64,000 nt of DNA from Frigoribacterium sp. PhB24 (GTDB lineage: Bacteria > Actinomycetota > Actinomycetes > Actinomycetales > Microbacteriaceae): NCBI RefSeq assembly GCF_003755185.1, contig NZ_RKIC01000010.1:186001-250000 (forward strand). Reading direction: 5' to 3'. How positions within the stretch are numbered: the first letter of the stretch is position 1; each line of letters opens with the position of its first letter. Below the pieces are notes generated by a model. The model worked only from the letters and a program-made list of their open reading frames with translations, had not been told where the DNA came from and searched no databases. The translations under genes and the position numbers were made by a program. Positions 6,504 to 11,628 of the stretch are shown piece by piece.

Positions 6504-7058
6504 TTGCATTTCGCCCCTGACACAGAAGACGTCCTCGAGTTCAACGTCGCCCTGGTCAACACCGGTGCCGGCGCGAGTCGGTCCGGCGACGACGAGCTCT
6601 CGACCCGGGCCGAGCTGAGGGCCCTGCTCGACTCGTTCGCCTTCTCGGGCCGCTTCGACCGCGACGACGCCGAGCTGGCCTCGGTACAGGGGGTCCGGGC
6701 CGAGCTGCGGCGCATCTGGACCCTCGAGCGCGACCTGCTGGCCGCCGAGGTGAACCGCATGCTGGCCGACAGTGTCTCGTCGCCCCGGCTCGTGCGACAC
6801 GACGCCCTCGACTGGCACCTGCACGCCACGAGCGACGACGCGCCCCTCGCCGACCGCATCCGCGTCGAGTCGGCCCTGGCCCTGGTGGACGTGATCCGCA
6901 CCGACGAGACCGGTCGGCTGCGGGCCTGTGCCGCGGACGACTGCGACGGGGTCTTCGTCGACCTGTCGCGCAACGGGTCCAAGCGGTTCTGCAGCGTCCG
7001 CTGCGGCAACCGGGTCAACATGATCGCCTTCCGCGAGCGCCGGGCCGACGCCGACTGA
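6504..7058 (+). CDS. CGNR zinc-finger protein (ABATE domain), probable transcription regulator
   Basis: A 184-aa protein with an N-terminal ABATE-like domain and a C-terminal CGNR zinc finger: CAADDCDGVF, then FCSVRCGNR close to the end (four Cys positions visible). The family is thought to bind DNA and regulate stress or transporter genes. The start is TTG 6504, preceded by AAGGAG with a seven-base spacer, which decides it. It is divergent from the EamA transporter with only about 90 bases between starts, so control of that transporter is likely (inference). Confidence 0.85.
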   Translation: MHFAPDTEDVLEFNVALVNTGAGASRSGDDELSTRAELRALLDSFAFSGRFDRDDAELASVQGVRAELRRIWTLERDLLAAEVNRMLADSVSSPRLVRHDALDWHLHATSDDAPLADRIRVESALALVDVIRTDETGRLRACAADDCDGVFVDLSRNGSKRFCSVRCGNRVNMIAFRERRADAD

Positions 7059-7228
7059 CGCCCGATGGCCGGCTGAGGGGCCCCGTCTGGTCATCGGCTT
7101 CGTCGGGCCGTCGATGCTCGCCGTGTCCCGCAGGCGATTTCGGGGGCTCCACCGAGAAGGCTCCGACGCGCGCTGCCTCACCCATGGCTTCAGCTGAACG
7201 GGCGAGCCGAAACCCGCTATGTCCGATG

Positions 7229-7257
7229 TGTTGTGAAGAACGTTGGTTCGCTAGTAT
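7229..7257 (+). promoter_or_regulatory. probable promoter of the secreted-peptide/ABC operon
   Basis: TAGTAT at 7252-7257 is a good -10 hexamer, with TGTTGT (7229-7234) 17 bases upstream as a weak -35. It is in an unusually AT-rich stretch for this genome. The leader from here to ATG 7347 is about 80 bases. Confidence 0.5.
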
Positions 7258-7308
7258 GTTTAGTACCGGTGGCTCTCGGAAGCCAGCTATCTCGTTCAAC
7301 GACGAACA

Positions 7309-7332
7309 ACCGGGAGGCATCGTCCTCCCGGT
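7309..7332 (+). promoter_or_regulatory. 5'-UTR hairpin just upstream of the ribosome site
   Basis: Perfect 9-bp inverted repeat, ACCGGGAGG (7309-7317) and CCTCCCGGT (7324-7332), with a 6-base loop. The GGAAAAGGAG ribosome site of the next gene starts directly after it. The left arm itself contains GGGAGG. A hairpin here could control translation of the first operon gene or stabilise the transcript. Confidence 0.5.
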
Positions 7333-7346
7333 GGAAAAGGAGAGAC

Positions 7347-7709
7347 ATGTCCGCGAAAACGAGTTTCGTGACGTTCCTTCTCGCTGTGGGTCTGGTCGCC
7401 GGTGGCGCCGTGACGGCGGCTCCGGCGAACGCTGTAGGGACTGTGAACGGCAAGTGCAGCTACTACGACTCTTTCGTCGGCACGAGCTCTCGCAGCGGCA
7501 ACAGCTCTACCGCCGGGCAGAAGAAACTGTGCGGAAACGTGAAGGTCCGCGTCGGGTACAACGTTTCTGGTGGTACCGCCCTCTACACGTCCTGGAAGTC
7601 CGGATACGGGCTCGTCATCCAGGGCCCCGTCGGCTATCAGGTATTCGGTGGCGAACACACGGTGTCCAATCCGACCCTGGGGGCTCACCCCAAGCTCGTC
7701 CGGTCATGA
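7347..7709 (+). CDS. small secreted two-cysteine protein, first gene of ABC operon
   Basis: A 120-aa precursor with a clear Sec signal (residues 1-29, ending APANA) and a mature part of about 91 residues. The mature part has two cysteines (C37 and C62), many Gly/Ser/Tyr residues and a C-terminal GEHTVSNP segment. The start is fixed by AAGGAG six bases upstream. The stop overlaps the start of the lipoprotein gene (ATGA). Size and context, followed by lipoprotein, adaptor, ATPase and permease, resemble secreted bacteriocin-like peptides encoded with a transporter. I cannot place it in lactococcin 972 or another named family. Codon use is less GC-biased than that of most genes here. Confidence 0.8.
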   Translation: MSAKTSFVTFLLAVGLVAGGAVTAAPANAVGTVNGKCSYYDSFVGTSSRSGNSSTAGQKKLCGNVKVRVGYNVSGGTALYTSWKSGYGLVIQGPVGYQVFGGEHTVSNPTLGAHPKLVRS

Positions 7710-8191
7710 GGCAGGGGCTGCTCGCCATCGCGGTGGCGGTTGCGGCGGTGACGCTCAGTGGTTGCAGTGGGGCGGCAGAAACGCCGTCTGACTCGCCCGG
7801 CGAGGCTGCTGTCTCTCAACAACAGGTCGACGCTCTCCGGGACGGTGACGTCACCTGGGACGAGTACCAGACCGGCTTCGCGGCTTACCAAGCGTGCCTC
7901 AGCAAGGAGGGATACGAACTCGTCGATCCACACATCGCAGATGATCTGATGGACTTCGCCGTTCCCGGTGCGGCCGTGGAATCGGGGGCCGACGACACGT
8001 GCTACCAGTACAACTGGTCGAAGATCGATGATGTCTGGCAGGTCGCCCACCAAGACACCTCAGCGTCAGCAAGGCTCGTCGCCGCATGCTTGGAGGCGAA
8101 TGGGATCACGCCTCGGCAGAAGTACACGGACAACGTCGAACTGCTGAACGAGAACGGCATCGACGTATCTGGTTGTCCCGTCAATGGCTGA
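7706..8191 (+). CDS. four-cysteine lipoprotein in ABC operon
   Basis: A 161-aa protein with a lipoprotein signal: hydrophobic N-terminus then lipobox LSGC (C20), so membrane-anchored outside the cell. The mature domain has two similar stretches, each with aromatic residues and a Cys-containing helix (YQACLSKEGYEL and VAACLEANGIT), plus TCYQYNW and a final SGCPVNG. This gives four further cysteines that could form two disulfides. The ATG overlaps the upstream stop (ATGA), and its own stop overlaps the next start by eight bases. It may bind or neutralise the secreted peptide (inference). Confidence 0.82.
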   Translation: MRQGLLAIAVAVAAVTLSGCSGAAETPSDSPGEAAVSQQQVDALRDGDVTWDEYQTGFAAYQACLSKEGYELVDPHIADDLMDFAVPGAAVESGADDTCYQYNWSKIDDVWQVAHQDTSASARLVAACLEANGITPRQKYTDNVELLNENGIDVSGCPVNG

Positions 8192-9344
8192 GCGAACACG
8201 CGACGAGCGACCGGTGCGTTCGGTCGTCGGGCTGTGCGGGGGCCTTGCGCTCGTCGCCCTCTGGGCCGCTCCCGTGGGGCTCCTCGCGGTCTCGGTCCAC
8301 GGGGCGAAGGCGGAGCAGAACCGATCTGTGACCATCGCGGCTCCCGACATCGTGACCGTCGGGAGCCGAGACGCGACCTCACATCAAGCCGTCACGGTGA
8401 CGGCACGGTCGGGTCCCGCTCCCGAGGTGACGACGCAGCTCGAAGGCACCATCACGCGTGTCGCCATCGAGCTAGGCAGCGAGCTGTCTTCTCATGAGGA
8501 ACTGTTCGCTCTGAACGGCCGCCCCGCTTTCGCGTTCATGGAAGAAACACCCCTGTATCGTGACCTCTCGATCGGGGACTCCGGGCCAGACGTCCTGGCT
8601 CTGGCCCGCCATCTGGTGAGCGCGGGTGTGCTCAGGGACAACGACGTGGACGGCATTTTCGGGCCGCGGATGCGGGCGGCGGTGGAGAAGTACCAGGTCC
8701 AGGCCGGATTCCCTAGGGATGGGACTTTCCTGCGTTCTTACGTGGTCTACGTACCGCCCTCTTTCGGTGCCGTGTCCTCTGTGCTCCTGCGCACGGGGCA
8801 AGAGATCTCCGCCGAGACCACTGTGATGACCGGGAGCTCACCCGTCGATGATGTCGAGATTCGGTCCGCCAGCGATGGCTCTCCTGTGCGCGATGCCGAT
8901 CAGGGGGCTGTCACCGTCGTCATCGGTTCTGAGCAGGTGGATCTCAACTCCATTGCAGTCGAAGAACAGCAGGCCAGCACTCTGATTTCCGTTCTCGAGA
9001 CGGGGGTCTCCCGTGGTGCCATCACTGTCACGGAATCAGAATCAGACAAGATCGTGACCCGGCAGTACTCCGGCGCGTTCATCGCGACGTCACGAGGGGA
9101 GCCCAGGGGGAGCGTCCCGGCGACAGCGGTATACACCACCGCCACCGGCCGTTCGTGTGTCGTCGAGAGTGGATCATCGACCACGTGGCAGGAGCAGGGA
9201 ATGACGGTCCACCGACTCGATGCCGCGACGGCAGATGTCGGAGAGCTGGGGCAGTCCCTCATCGACGCGACCCTCATCGGCTCGTCGGTTGTCAGAGACC
9301 CCTCAGTGCTTCCGCAGAAGGTCCTCCGGCAATGCATGTCGTGA
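8184..9344 (+). CDS. membrane-anchored adaptor with peptidoglycan-binding domain
   Basis: A 386-aa protein with an N-terminal membrane helix (about 18-40) and an extracytoplasmic region resembling the membrane-fusion protein of an ABC exporter. Inserted at about residues 124-170 is a PG_binding_1 domain, recognisable by GDSGPDVLALARHL and DGIFGPRMRAAVEKYQ. Such adaptors dock on the cell wall in MacAB-like systems of Gram-positive bacteria. The gene overlaps the lipoprotein gene by eight bases and the ATPase gene by 13 bases. Together with those two it probably forms the envelope part of the transporter. Confidence 0.85.
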   Translation: MAERTRDERPVRSVVGLCGGLALVALWAAPVGLLAVSVHGAKAEQNRSVTIAAPDIVTVGSRDATSHQAVTVTARSGPAPEVTTQLEGTITRVAIELGSELSSHEELFALNGRPAFAFMEETPLYRDLSIGDSGPDVLALARHLVSAGVLRDNDVDGIFGPRMRAAVEKYQVQAGFPRDGTFLRSYVVYVPPSFGAVSSVLLRTGQEISAETTVMTGSSPVDDVEIRSASDGSPVRDADQGAVTVVIGSEQVDLNSIAVEEQQASTLISVLETGVSRGAITVTESESDKIVTRQYSGAFIATSRGEPRGSVPATAVYTTATGRSCVVESGSSTTWQEQGMTVHRLDAATADVGELGQSLIDATLIGSSVVRDPSVLPQKVLRQCMS

Positions 9345-9955
9345 TCGAAGACGTCGGTTTCTCATATCGAAACCGGCACGTGTTCTCCGGGCTTCAAGCC
9401 ATATTCCACGAAAACGAGGTCACCGCTCTCGTCGGACCATCCGGTAGCGGCAAATCGAGCCTCTTGGCGGCCATCGCCGGCTTCACCGAACCAACGCAAG
9501 GAGCCATCTGGCTCGTCGCGAACGATGATCGCCTCAGACCCCGACCGGCCGCGGTGTCCTGGATCGCACAAGGCGCCATCGTCCTCAATGCCCGTACATC
9601 TCTCGACAACGTTCTCCTCGGTCCCCTCAGCGAAGGAAAGACACACGAGGAAGCCGTGGAGCTCGGCATGCGAGCGCTCGACGACGTCGGGCTCTCGGAA
9701 CGTGCCGGTTCGCTCTGTAGCACCCTTTCAGGCGGTGAAAGACAACGCGTCGCCGTTGCACGATCGCTGGCCTCCTCTCGGCCCCTGATCCTTGCCGACG
9801 AACCCAGTGCCGGACTGGACGAAGCCAATACCCGGGGCCTGTCACACCTGTTCACCACGCTCCGACGAACAGCGACCGTCATCATCGCCACTCACGACCC
9901 CGTGATGATCGACGCGGCTGATGACGTCATCAACCTCCGAAGCAGCACCCGGTGA
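9332..9955 (+). CDS. ABC transporter ATP-binding protein (MacB/LolD-like, short)
   Basis: A 207-aa nucleotide-binding subunit with Walker A GPSGSGKS (35-42), signature LSGGERQ near 131, Walker B LILADEP near 151 followed by SAGLD, and the switch His in THD near 187. It is slightly shorter than the usual 220-230 aa. ATG 9332 is chosen because it lies inside the end of the adaptor gene; GTG 9341 is an alternative. The stop overlaps the permease GTG (GTGA). It should energise the permease encoded next. Confidence 0.9.
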   Translation: MHVVIEDVGFSYRNRHVFSGLQAIFHENEVTALVGPSGSGKSSLLAAIAGFTEPTQGAIWLVANDDRLRPRPAAVSWIAQGAIVLNARTSLDNVLLGPLSEGKTHEEAVELGMRALDDVGLSERAGSLCSTLSGGERQRVAVARSLASSRPLILADEPSAGLDEANTRGLSHLFTTLRRTATVIIATHDPVMIDAADDVINLRSSTR

Positions 9956-10989
9956 GCAACACCACCTGGCGGCTCTCCTCTCTCGTCCGTGAGGCAGCTC
10001 TCAACGTCGCGAACCCCTGGTCGCGAATGTGCACGTTGCTCCTCCTGGCCGCCCTGGCCGGTTCGACCTGCGCGTCTTTCGCCGCATGCGAGTCGGCAGG
10101 TTTCACGAACCGACTCGACCACTTAGAAGCACGAGGGTCGAACGTCCTCTCCTTCCAAGCGTCCGCGTCAGACACGAACGTCACGATTTCCCGAGCGTCG
10201 TGTGAAGCGCTTGCTGTTCAGGGAGGAGTCTCGAGGGCCGGCCTCCTGATCTCCGAGGGCACCCGAGACGTTCCAGAGATCGGCGGACGAACACCTGTCC
10301 TCACGGGAAGCGTCACGTTGTTCCCCCCGCTCGCCTCACGCGACGGGCTGCTGGGTCCCAACCTCGTCACGTCTTCCGAAGAACGCTACGTCTCGCTCGC
10401 GCCCGCAGAAGTCAGGCATGTCAGCGTGAACGACCGTCAACCAGAGGGGATCCCCACGAACAACGCCCTCGTCCTGCCGCTGTCCATCGAGCGCACATCA
10501 GCACCGAACTGCCTCGTGGTCCTGGACAGATACCAAGACATCCGAACTGCGGTGGCAACACTCGAACCCCAGCTCGAGGTGTCCGGAGGTCCATTGATCG
10601 CTCGCACGCAGTTGAGTCAGACCTCCGACCCTGTCGCGGATTGGCGACACCGGCCAGGGCAGTACCTGCCGCTGGCCATCGGTCTGATCGGTGGATTCTG
10701 TTCCAGCCTCCTCCTCTGGACTCGCGCGAACGACATAGCTGCCTATCGGCTTTCGGGAACATCGAAGCGATCGCTCGCACAGCTGCTCAGCGTCGAGATG
10801 CTTCTCGTCGTAGGTCTCTTCGCCACCAGTGGCACCGTCGCCGCTCAGGTGCTTCGGTGCGACCTCGTCAGCCTCTCCGAGGTGTTCTTCTGGATGCTCG
10901 GAGGGGCCGCCACGTGGTTGCTGGCGGCATCGGTCGGCATCGGTCGATCCGTTGTCGCACGAGCCTCGACACTGGCAAGGGAGCGCTGA
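9952..10989 (+). CDS. ABC transporter permease, four TM segments with large outer domain
   Basis: A 345-aa membrane protein with FtsX/MacB-like topology: TM1 at about 25-45, an extracytoplasmic domain of about 190 residues, then TM2 (about 237-256), TM3 (279-300) and TM4 (306-330). Several cysteines lie in the outer domain. Sequence similarity to named FtsX families is weak, so the call rests on topology and on coupling to the ATPase (GTGA overlap). It is the last gene of the operon, followed by a weak hairpin. Export of, or resistance to, the upstream secreted peptide is the simplest role. Confidence 0.72.
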   Translation: MSNTTWRLSSLVREAALNVANPWSRMCTLLLLAALAGSTCASFAACESAGFTNRLDHLEARGSNVLSFQASASDTNVTISRASCEALAVQGGVSRAGLLISEGTRDVPEIGGRTPVLTGSVTLFPPLASRDGLLGPNLVTSSEERYVSLAPAEVRHVSVNDRQPEGIPTNNALVLPLSIERTSAPNCLVVLDRYQDIRTAVATLEPQLEVSGGPLIARTQLSQTSDPVADWRHRPGQYLPLAIGLIGGFCSSLLLWTRANDIAAYRLSGTSKRSLAQLLSVEMLLVVGLFATSGTVAAQVLRCDLVSLSEVFFWMLGGAATWLLAASVGIGRSVVARASTLARER

Positions 10990-10992
10990 GAC

Positions 10993-11040
10993 AGCCCCGG
11001 TCACGTCGACCCGGTCGGGCGCGGATGCCTGATCGGGGCT
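10993..11040 (+). terminator. possible terminator of the peptide/ABC operon
   Basis: An 11-bp inverted repeat with one G-U pair (arms at 10993-11003 and 11030-11040) directly follows the permease stop codon. The loop is long and there is no T-tract, so it is only a candidate. Confidence 0.35.
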
Positions 11041-11070
11041 CGGTGATCGGGCGGCGTCGACCGCGCGCAC

Positions 11071-11091
11071 CAATTGCATTGTGCACAATTG
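11071..11091 (+). promoter_or_regulatory. OhrR-type operator
   Basis: A 21-bp element with CAATTG at both ends and the perfect palindrome ATTGTGCACAAT (11078-11089). It lies about 18 bases before the -10 (TACAGT) of the MarR gene. CAATTG half-sites are typical for OhrR/MarR regulators, so autoregulation is likely. Confidence 0.75.
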
Positions 11092-11121
11092 AATCGCCCG
11101 CAACGTGCTACAGTCGCCCAC

Positions 11122-11628
11122 ATGACCGCAGCAGCCGCCCCGACGACCCCGGGCCCGACGCCCGTGCTCGACGAGCAGATCTGCTTCGCGCTCTACAACG
11201 CCTCGCGTGCCGTCACGGCCCGCTACCGTGACCTGCTCGCCCCACTCGGCCTCACCTACCCGCAGTACCTCGTGCTGCTGGTCCTCTGGCAGGGCGGCCC
11301 GACGACGGTCTCCGAACTCGGCCACCAGCTGCAGCTCGAGTCGGGCACGCTGTCGCCCCTGCTCAAGCGGCTCGAGACCCACGGGCTGCTCACCCGCACC
11401 CGTTCGGTCGTCGACGAGCGCACGGTCGACGTCGCCCTGACCGGCGCGGGGGTCGCCCTCCGCGAGCAGGCCGCCGGCTTCGCCGACCAGATCTGCGGCG
11501 CCACCGGCCTCGAGCTGACCGACCTCCAGACGCTGCGAGCCGACATCGCCGCCCTCGCGGCCGCCGTCCGGGCGAACACCGCCGCGGTCGCCGCCGCCAC
11601 CCCGCCCCGTGCAGACCAGCCACACTGA
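11122..11628 (+). CDS. MarR-family regulator, OhrR type (organic peroxide sensor)
   Basis: A 168-aa winged-helix regulator. The N-terminal QICFALYNASRAVTARYRDLL contains the redox-sensing Cys (C18, numbered from ATG 11122) typical of OhrR. The DNA-binding helices follow (TTVSELGHQLQLESGTLSPLLK). The start is ATG 11122, because TACAGT lies seven bases upstream (leaderless); the frame is open further upstream but would then include the operator. Oxidation by organic hydroperoxides should release it from the palindrome upstream. It is followed by an OsmC-family peroxidase gene, the expected target. Confidence 0.87.
   Translation: MTAAAAPTTPGPTPVLDEQICFALYNASRAVTARYRDLLAPLGLTYPQYLVLLVLWQGGPTTVSELGHQLQLESGTLSPLLKRLETHGLLTRTRSVVDERTVDVALTGAGVALREQAAGFADQICGATGLELTDLQTLRADIAALAAAVRANTAAVAAATPPRADQPH

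Follow-up and report, generated by a model that had tools for sequence, protein, structure and literature searches.

Organization of the locus

A block of five genes in Frigoribacterium sp. PhB24, a member of the Microbacteriaceae, is the subject of this analysis. It lies on contig NZ_RKIC01000010.1, and all coordinates follow the numbering of the window, that is, the whole stretch of 64,000 nucleotides that was analysed. The block encodes a small secreted peptide, a lipoprotein and a three-part ATP-binding cassette (ABC) transporter, and is called the cassette below. Its features are as follows (aa, amino acids; TM, transmembrane):

7309-7332, + strand: hairpin before the ribosome site of the peptide gene; 9-bp stem, 6-base loop
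7347-7709, + strand, ATG start: secreted peptide gene, candidate bacteriocin; 120 aa, signal to about residue 29 as judged by eye, mature part of about 91 aa with two cysteines
7706-8191, + strand, ATG start: lipoprotein gene, candidate immunity protein; 161 aa, lipobox Cys20 and four conserved cysteines
8184-9344, + strand, ATG start: membrane-anchored adaptor; 386 aa, one TM helix, possible lipoyl/HlyD-like part, PG_binding_1 at residues 133-180
9332-9955, + strand, ATG start: ABC ATPase; 207 aa, PF00005
9952-10989, + strand, GTG start: MacB/FtsX-like permease; 345 aa, TM helices at 26-44, 239-257, 283-301 and 312-330

A sequence-only reading of this DNA had described five overlapping genes, less GC-biased in codon use than their surroundings, behind a promoter and a 5' hairpin of their own. 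The gene arrangement is confirmed, as all frames in the block (7347-10989) are open without internal stops, and successive genes overlap by 4, 8, 13 and 4 bases; the five are probably translated as a single coupled unit. The compositional claim also holds. The cassette genes have a GC content of 0.62-0.65 and a third-position GC content (GC3) of 0.69-0.78, against window means of 0.716 and 0.85 over 33 other long open reading frames (ORFs), a baseline that includes some shadow ORFs. The hairpin is there too, but the region 7260-7360 folds only modestly better than shuffled versions (z -1.88; 10 of 200 shuffles equally good). The promoter was not recovered: a scan of 7050-11150 for the sigma-70 type found none.

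The peptide and the lipoprotein

The peptide carries a single N-terminal hydrophobic stretch, to which a Sec-type signal was assigned by simple rules. As had been anticipated, neither the peptide nor the permease can be placed in a family with a name: the window peptide has no match in Pfam or NCBIfam at E values up to 10, and the permease has none in either collection. The AlphaFold2 model of the mature peptide, made from 10 sequences, is all-beta with eight strands (predicted local distance difference test, pLDDT, 83.8; predicted template modelling score, pTM, 0.73). When a peptide-wide profile (A5) was compared with the PDB, a nanobody came out at 0.0008, along with weaker mixed rows, and these were taken as chance.

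Similarly, the lipoprotein matches nothing in Pfam, and nothing in NCBIfam that approaches a cut-off. Once duplicates and odd lengths had been removed, 95 homologues carried a strict lipobox; 13 others lacked one, several of these showing a near-lipobox cysteine by eye. Besides the lipid-anchored residue, two cysteines are invariant and two nearly invariant among 87 aligned sequences. The lipoprotein model (pLDDT 90.0, pTM 0.74) consists of helices and a beta hairpin. Profile and structure searches of the PDB gave it no convincing match (best Z 4.8). For neither the peptide nor the lipoprotein does this lack of structural relatives prove that the fold is new.

The adaptor, ATPase and permease

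The adaptor is predicted to bind peptidoglycan through its PG_binding_1 domain (PF01471, 9.1e-8, 32.6 bits against a cut-off of 23), and hydropathy places its TM helix at residues 20-38. The adaptor profile (A6) also matches a peptidoglycan-binding domain at 110-167 (8.5e-9). Directly before this wall-binding part, at about 36-103, it gives weak matches to biotinyl/lipoyl, EmrA and MexC-like adaptor proteins. MacA-type adaptors carry a hairpin that reaches TolC; we infer that the wall-binding domain may occupy its place here.

The ATPase belongs to PF00005 (3.1e-25), and its best NCBIfam models are CydD (136 bits) and L_ocin_972_ABC (121 bits), both below their cut-offs. A defence system was considered and rejected, as PADLOC matches the ATPase alone, as it does generic ATPases. 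The permease has, by hydropathy, the layout of the MacB/FtsX (type VII) proteins: one TM helix, about 195 aa outside, and then three more helices. Its profile A11 weakly matches MacB (0.0052), PsdB (0.023), FtsX (0.062) and BceB (0.096) in the PDB, while with profile A1 designed TIM barrels outrank BceB. The MacAB-like character proposed for the ABC part is supported by these weak permease matches and by those of the adaptor.

Spread and conservation of the cassette

A search that used only the window permease as query matched 8 of 299 Microbacteriaceae genomes at 1e-3. The match in G178 was false, and this locus (L012) was rejected as a cassette and reused as a control. A first permease profile reached 99 of 396 genomes of the order at 1e-3, many of these matches being weak and confined to the TM region. 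A profile of 27 permeases found 38 of the 299 Microbacteriaceae genomes at 1e-8, spread over 22 of 85 genera, and none of the six other genomes of the window's own genus. Such a sporadic occurrence, along with a GC content below that of the surroundings, is hard to reconcile with a housekeeping role like that of FtsEX, in which the module would control an enzyme of the wall and the peptide would be an inhibitor or a wall protein. That reading can draw on FtsX being among the weak permease matches and on the predicted peptidoglycan binding of the adaptor, and it is very improbable.

The locus set comprises 88 loci: the window, L095 (reached through its PF09683 peptide) and 86 selected by permease matches. 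The latter are six of the seven of the first set, 40 taken from the best and some weaker order-wide matches, and 40 further Microbacteriaceae or order matches; five short or weak Microbacteriaceae permease matches were left out. The four genes for lipoprotein, adaptor, ATPase and permease occur together in 84 of the 88. Two of the exceptions lie at contig ends (L055, L153), in L121 the lipoprotein was not found, and in L118 no ATPase was found and the permease frame is interrupted by a stop. L118 (genome G028) is seemingly a decayed cassette, its lactococcin-type peptide and its lipoprotein still being open. In 20 control loci, the better profiles detected neither lipoprotein nor adaptor, and a weak permease match appeared in one (L099).

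Since the loci were chosen by their permeases and the profiles were partly built from them, a search that starts from the lipoprotein provides an independent test. Among 296 genomes of the class, the lipoprotein profile alone gave 10 matches in 9 genomes, the window included. The full unit was present at seven of the nine loci outside the window (L156-L159, L162-L164) and not at L160 and L161. The recurrence of the gene set in these two samples goes beyond chance.

Several lipoproteins are found in 22 of the 88 loci. L058, L146 and L051 have four to five lipoprotein genes adjoining one pump. One genome, of a Mycetocola (G160), holds five cassettes (L009, L127, L146, L149, L152), and three peptide types occur across L009, L146 and L152.

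The neighbours of the window cassette are a CGNR zinc-finger gene (6504-7058) and a MarR-type gene (11122-11628), with no two-component system. Both were matched in all six other genomes of the genus; in four of these a distance of about 190-240 kb separates them, and in two they lie on separate contigs. A straightforward insertion into a conserved site is not evident from this arrangement; judged from the gene positions, the cassette seems to sit at the junction of a rearrangement. Carriage by phages or plasmids likewise found no support. Plasmid searches with the window peptide, the window permease and the L119 permease gave no match, phages had none to the L119 lipoprotein and viral contigs none to the window permease, and PHROGs returned nothing telling.

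Peptides of the cassette and their relation to lactococcin 972

Small secreted ORFs adjoin the unit, and their sequences are highly variable, with a mean column identity of 16%. Such an ORF immediately precedes 48 of 118 lipoprotein genes (46 of 85 loci) and 7 of 363 other genes at the same loci, an enrichment with a Fisher p of about 5e-26, in which the genes within one locus are not independent. This strict adjacency rule recovers a peptide at those 46 of 85 loci only. For the alignment (A12), peptides were chosen by rough rules and by eye, which gave 60 peptides from 56 loci. Two or more cysteines after residue 25 are present in 49 of the 60.

In the sequence-only reading, lactococcin 972 had been offered as a lead, and the cassette peptides support it: 21 of the 60 match PF09683 (Lactococcin_972; best 3.1e-15), the window peptide not being among them, and all 10 that were checked individually passed the family cut-off. 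The remaining 39, to which the window peptide belongs, lack PF09683 and match no other Pfam family at an E value below 0.0072. When NCBIfam was applied to 28 of the 60, a single lactococcin 972 match came out, and no further match had an E value below 0.018. The 21 peptides imply that some members of the cassette family carry genuine lactococcin-972-type peptides, and that others carry different types, such as the window's. The prospect of a wholly new system is therefore not borne out; the window cassette represents a separate branch within a family in which peptides of the lactococcin 972 type also occur.

A lactococcin 972 locus is described as lclA, lclB and an ABC transporter (PMC11161930). 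PF09683 occurs in 22 of the 396 genomes of the order, at 25 places, of which L081 was already in the set and three were left out; 20 regions were fetched. One of these (L095) proved to be a new cassette, and 19 were of the canonical type. A long ORF of about 440-870 aa stands before the ATPase in 18 of the 19, and of four such ORFs scanned, one matched TIGR01654, below the cut-off. Neither lipoprotein nor adaptor was detected at any of the 19 with the better profiles, with which two earlier weak lipoprotein fragments vanished. The window genome itself has a canonical-type lactococcin 972 locus on another contig (G000:C4:86669-86845, L094:6670-6846, - strand), where a PF09683 peptide (1.8e-8) is followed by a 716-aa ORF and an ATPase.

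The variety of the peptides also bears on a different role, in which a Bce-like ABC transporter would sense envelope antibiotics with the peptide or the lipoprotein as its ligand or co-sensor. A precedent exists in the secreted peptide YsaD, which modulates a Bce-like module (PMC7438565), and the permease weakly matches BceB and PsdB. However, the 21 PF09683 peptides are lactococcin 972 bacteriocins, a mean column identity this low is unlike a conserved co-sensor, and the flanking CGNR and MarR-type genes are not a two-component system. Sensing is accordingly rated as improbable.

Association of peptide type, lipoprotein and permease

The trees described here were quick ones, made without bootstrap, and the program warned of long branches. 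In the tree of 86 permeases, that of the window falls in a clade of ten with an SH-like approximate likelihood ratio (SH-aLRT) support of 100. A window-type peptide accompanies nine of the ten (eight labelled ones and L071). The tenth, L079, has three lipoproteins and no peptide was seen there.

Peptide types change far less often along the permease tree than they do when shuffled: 6 changes against 18.1 for the lactococcin type and 3 against 7.8 for the window type, with none of 500 shuffles as low in either case. On the lipoprotein tree, the corresponding values are 3 against 19.0 and 2 against 11.6, again with 0 of 500 as low. The lipoprotein of the window belongs to a set of 13, of which 12 are window-type, and this set includes the lipoproteins of two loci that have no pump (L166, L168). 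The trees indicate that peptide, lipoprotein and permease travel together.

Peptides and lipoproteins without the pump

A profile of the window-type peptide was run against the 299 Microbacteriaceae genomes. It matched 45 of them at an E value of 0.01 or better; matches over 40 bits were regarded as firm, six weaker ones were fetched and the rest were left. Five of the eight firm matches are in full cassettes (G160 twice, G223, G195 and the window). Two are a peptide with a lipoprotein and no pump (L166, L168), and one (L167) is a peptide alone. The 27-sequence permease profile found no cassette permease in the genomes of these three loci. Among the weaker matches, L172 adjoins a full unit and L174 a lipoprotein. 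A weak lipoprotein fragment lies near L171, and no cassette genes lie near L169, L170 and L173. Peptide homologues scattered without the ABC genes had been named as a finding that would refute the proposal, and this has come about in part: three of the eight firm matches are of this kind and five sit in full cassettes.

Lipoproteins without the pump were also met. At L161:6991-8394 (- strand), two paralogous secreted cysteine-containing peptides are followed by a lipoprotein, with no pump nearby; its genome (G890) has a full cassette elsewhere (L158). In Rarobacter faecitabidus (L114:7254-7755), a window-type peptide gene seems to be split over two frames, and two lipoprotein-like genes and the adaptor beside it are open. 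Perhaps immunity was retained there after loss of the peptide, or a sequencing error is responsible.

As the peptide and the lipoprotein are found together without the pump, the lipoprotein is the steadier partner. The peptides without a pump also argue against the pump as an obligatory exporter. It was proposed in the sequence-only reading that the ABC genes export the peptide, and this part is unsupported, since the peptide has a Sec-type signal of its own and three of its eight firm matches lack the ABC genes. An export module, in which the ABC trio is needed to carry the peptide through the wall in the manner of MacAB-TolC, with immunity as a side effect or encoded elsewhere, does have points in its favour. 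The permease is MacB-like, the adaptor is predicted to bind the wall, all five genes overlap, and MacAB has been modelled as exporting a disulfide peptide that Sec delivers (PMC5985334). Nevertheless, L166 and L168 keep peptide and lipoprotein, and L167 a lone peptide, in genomes with no permease match; L161 is pumpless nearby as well, though the other cassette of its genome could act in trans. Secretion of a lactococcin-972-like peptide, moreover, has been reported as support for Sec export, the route assumed for such peptides (PMC11796350). On this balance export is unlikely, though it is the strongest of the rival accounts.

Proposed function

Our preferred interpretation, to which we give a probability of about two in three, is that the cassette encodes a secreted antibacterial peptide and two safeguards for the cell that makes it, a lipoprotein and a wall-anchored pump. 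The 120-aa precursor would leave the cell by Sec, its signal peptide being cleaved. The mature peptide would fold outside into a small beta protein, its two cysteines probably forming one disulfide. By association with lactococcin 972, which acts at lipid II, it may harm related bacteria, most likely at the envelope. The lipoprotein, on the outside of the producing cell's membrane, would neutralise the peptide or shield its target. This role as an immunity factor, raised earlier as a possibility, is considered likely because the lipoprotein is the partner kept beside the peptide where the pump is missing. The adaptor would be held in the membrane by its TM helix and in the wall by PG_binding_1. 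Driven by ATP, the ATPase and the permease would then expel the peptide from the gap between membrane and wall, whether it arrives by itself or is passed on by the lipoprotein. Pumping is proposed by analogy with MacAB, YknXYZ and LanFEG, and the architecture is read from the sequence. In this form, the secretion and self-protection module of the sequence-only reading stands as a bacteriocin-like peptide with self-protection, and not as secretion by the ABC genes.

Several observations weigh against this interpretation. No peptide was recognised in 31 of the 88 loci (those of A12 and L071 have one). The window peptide was tried as a lactococcin 972 and rejected: it has no PF09683 match, and the mature parts do not align. 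With hhalign, 15 window-type and related peptides aligned with 21 of the lactococcin type over the signal region and a few residues beyond. The lactococcin 972 link of the window peptide is thus by the shared cassette, and lactococcin-type cassettes sit in a different part of the permease tree from the window. Structure comparison of the peptide model (Foldseek, VIA-align) returned assorted unrelated beta proteins, with a best Z of 5.2. Two smaller peptide groups follow the permease tree less closely, with 5 changes against 6.8 (3 of 500 shuffles as low) and 3 against 3.9 (25 of 500). Finally, L167 has a window-type peptide with neither lipoprotein nor pump, and L160 and L161 have lipoproteins without a pump, L160 also without a peptide that could be seen.

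A broader proposal, put forward tentatively and at somewhat less than even odds, is that of a polymorphic system of antagonism in Actinomycetes. A constant wall-anchored machine of the MacB type and a family of immunity lipoproteins of undescribed fold would serve many unrelated-looking, mostly disulfide-stapled secreted bacteriocins, lactococcin 972 being one type. The peptide-lipoprotein pairs would be gained, duplicated and orphaned as units.

Relation to known systems and implications

Lactococcin 972 (LclA/LclB and an ABC ATPase; PF09683, TIGR01653, TIGR01654, TIGR03608) likewise combines a small secreted peptide, an ATPase and a membrane protein. The window peptide, however, has two cysteines and lacks PF09683, a 345-aa permease stands in place of the long LclB/TIGR01654 protein, and a lipoprotein and an adaptor are present that all 19 canonical loci lack. 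Lactococcin-972-like genes have been noted in Bifidobacterium and in Propionibacterium, in the latter with a different gene order (PMC4289311), and a lactococcin 972 family gene cluster in Frigoribacterium (PMC12823222). A 2024 paper gives the functions of the B and C genes as unverified in any lactococcin 972 locus (PMC11796350).

NisI is a lipoprotein, and the peptide protected against by LanI and LanFEG is a lantibiotic with modification enzymes, unlike here. As proposed for the cassette, LanI and LanFEG (NisI, NisFEG) pair an immunity protein with an ABC transporter as a double self-protection of the producer (PMC4828448). AS-48EFGH, in turn, is listed in a table as a MacB-like system adjoining a bacteriocin (PMC5985334).

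AS-48 itself is a circular bacteriocin. An adaptor, an ATPase and a MacB-like permease also make up YknWXYZ, which protects against the SDP toxin, and MacAB-TolC. The cassette differs from them in the PG_binding_1 domain of its adaptor and in its dedicated lipoprotein and peptide genes within an overlapping block. MacB-type transporters are described as acting outside the membrane, YknX as binding peptidoglycan and YknXYZ as protecting from SDP (PMC5985334). YsaDCB of Lactococcus, a Bce-like ABC transporter with a small secreted peptide, protects against Lcn972 and works with a two-component system (PMC7438565).

Among the titles and abstract openings listed in searches of the openly licensed literature, none describes a lipoprotein-adaptor-ABC cassette. 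The best reading is that the cassettes form a large, little-described family which would work like lactococcin 972 and LanI/LanFEG with other transporter parts and with a lipoprotein to which the structure searches gave no match. As the protective parts lie in separate genes (lipoprotein, adaptor, ATPase and permease), each of which can be deleted on its own, the question of self-protection is directly testable. If this reading is true, many Microbacteriaceae and other Actinomycetes would carry narrow-spectrum antibacterial peptides that current models miss, as they do 39 of the 60 here.

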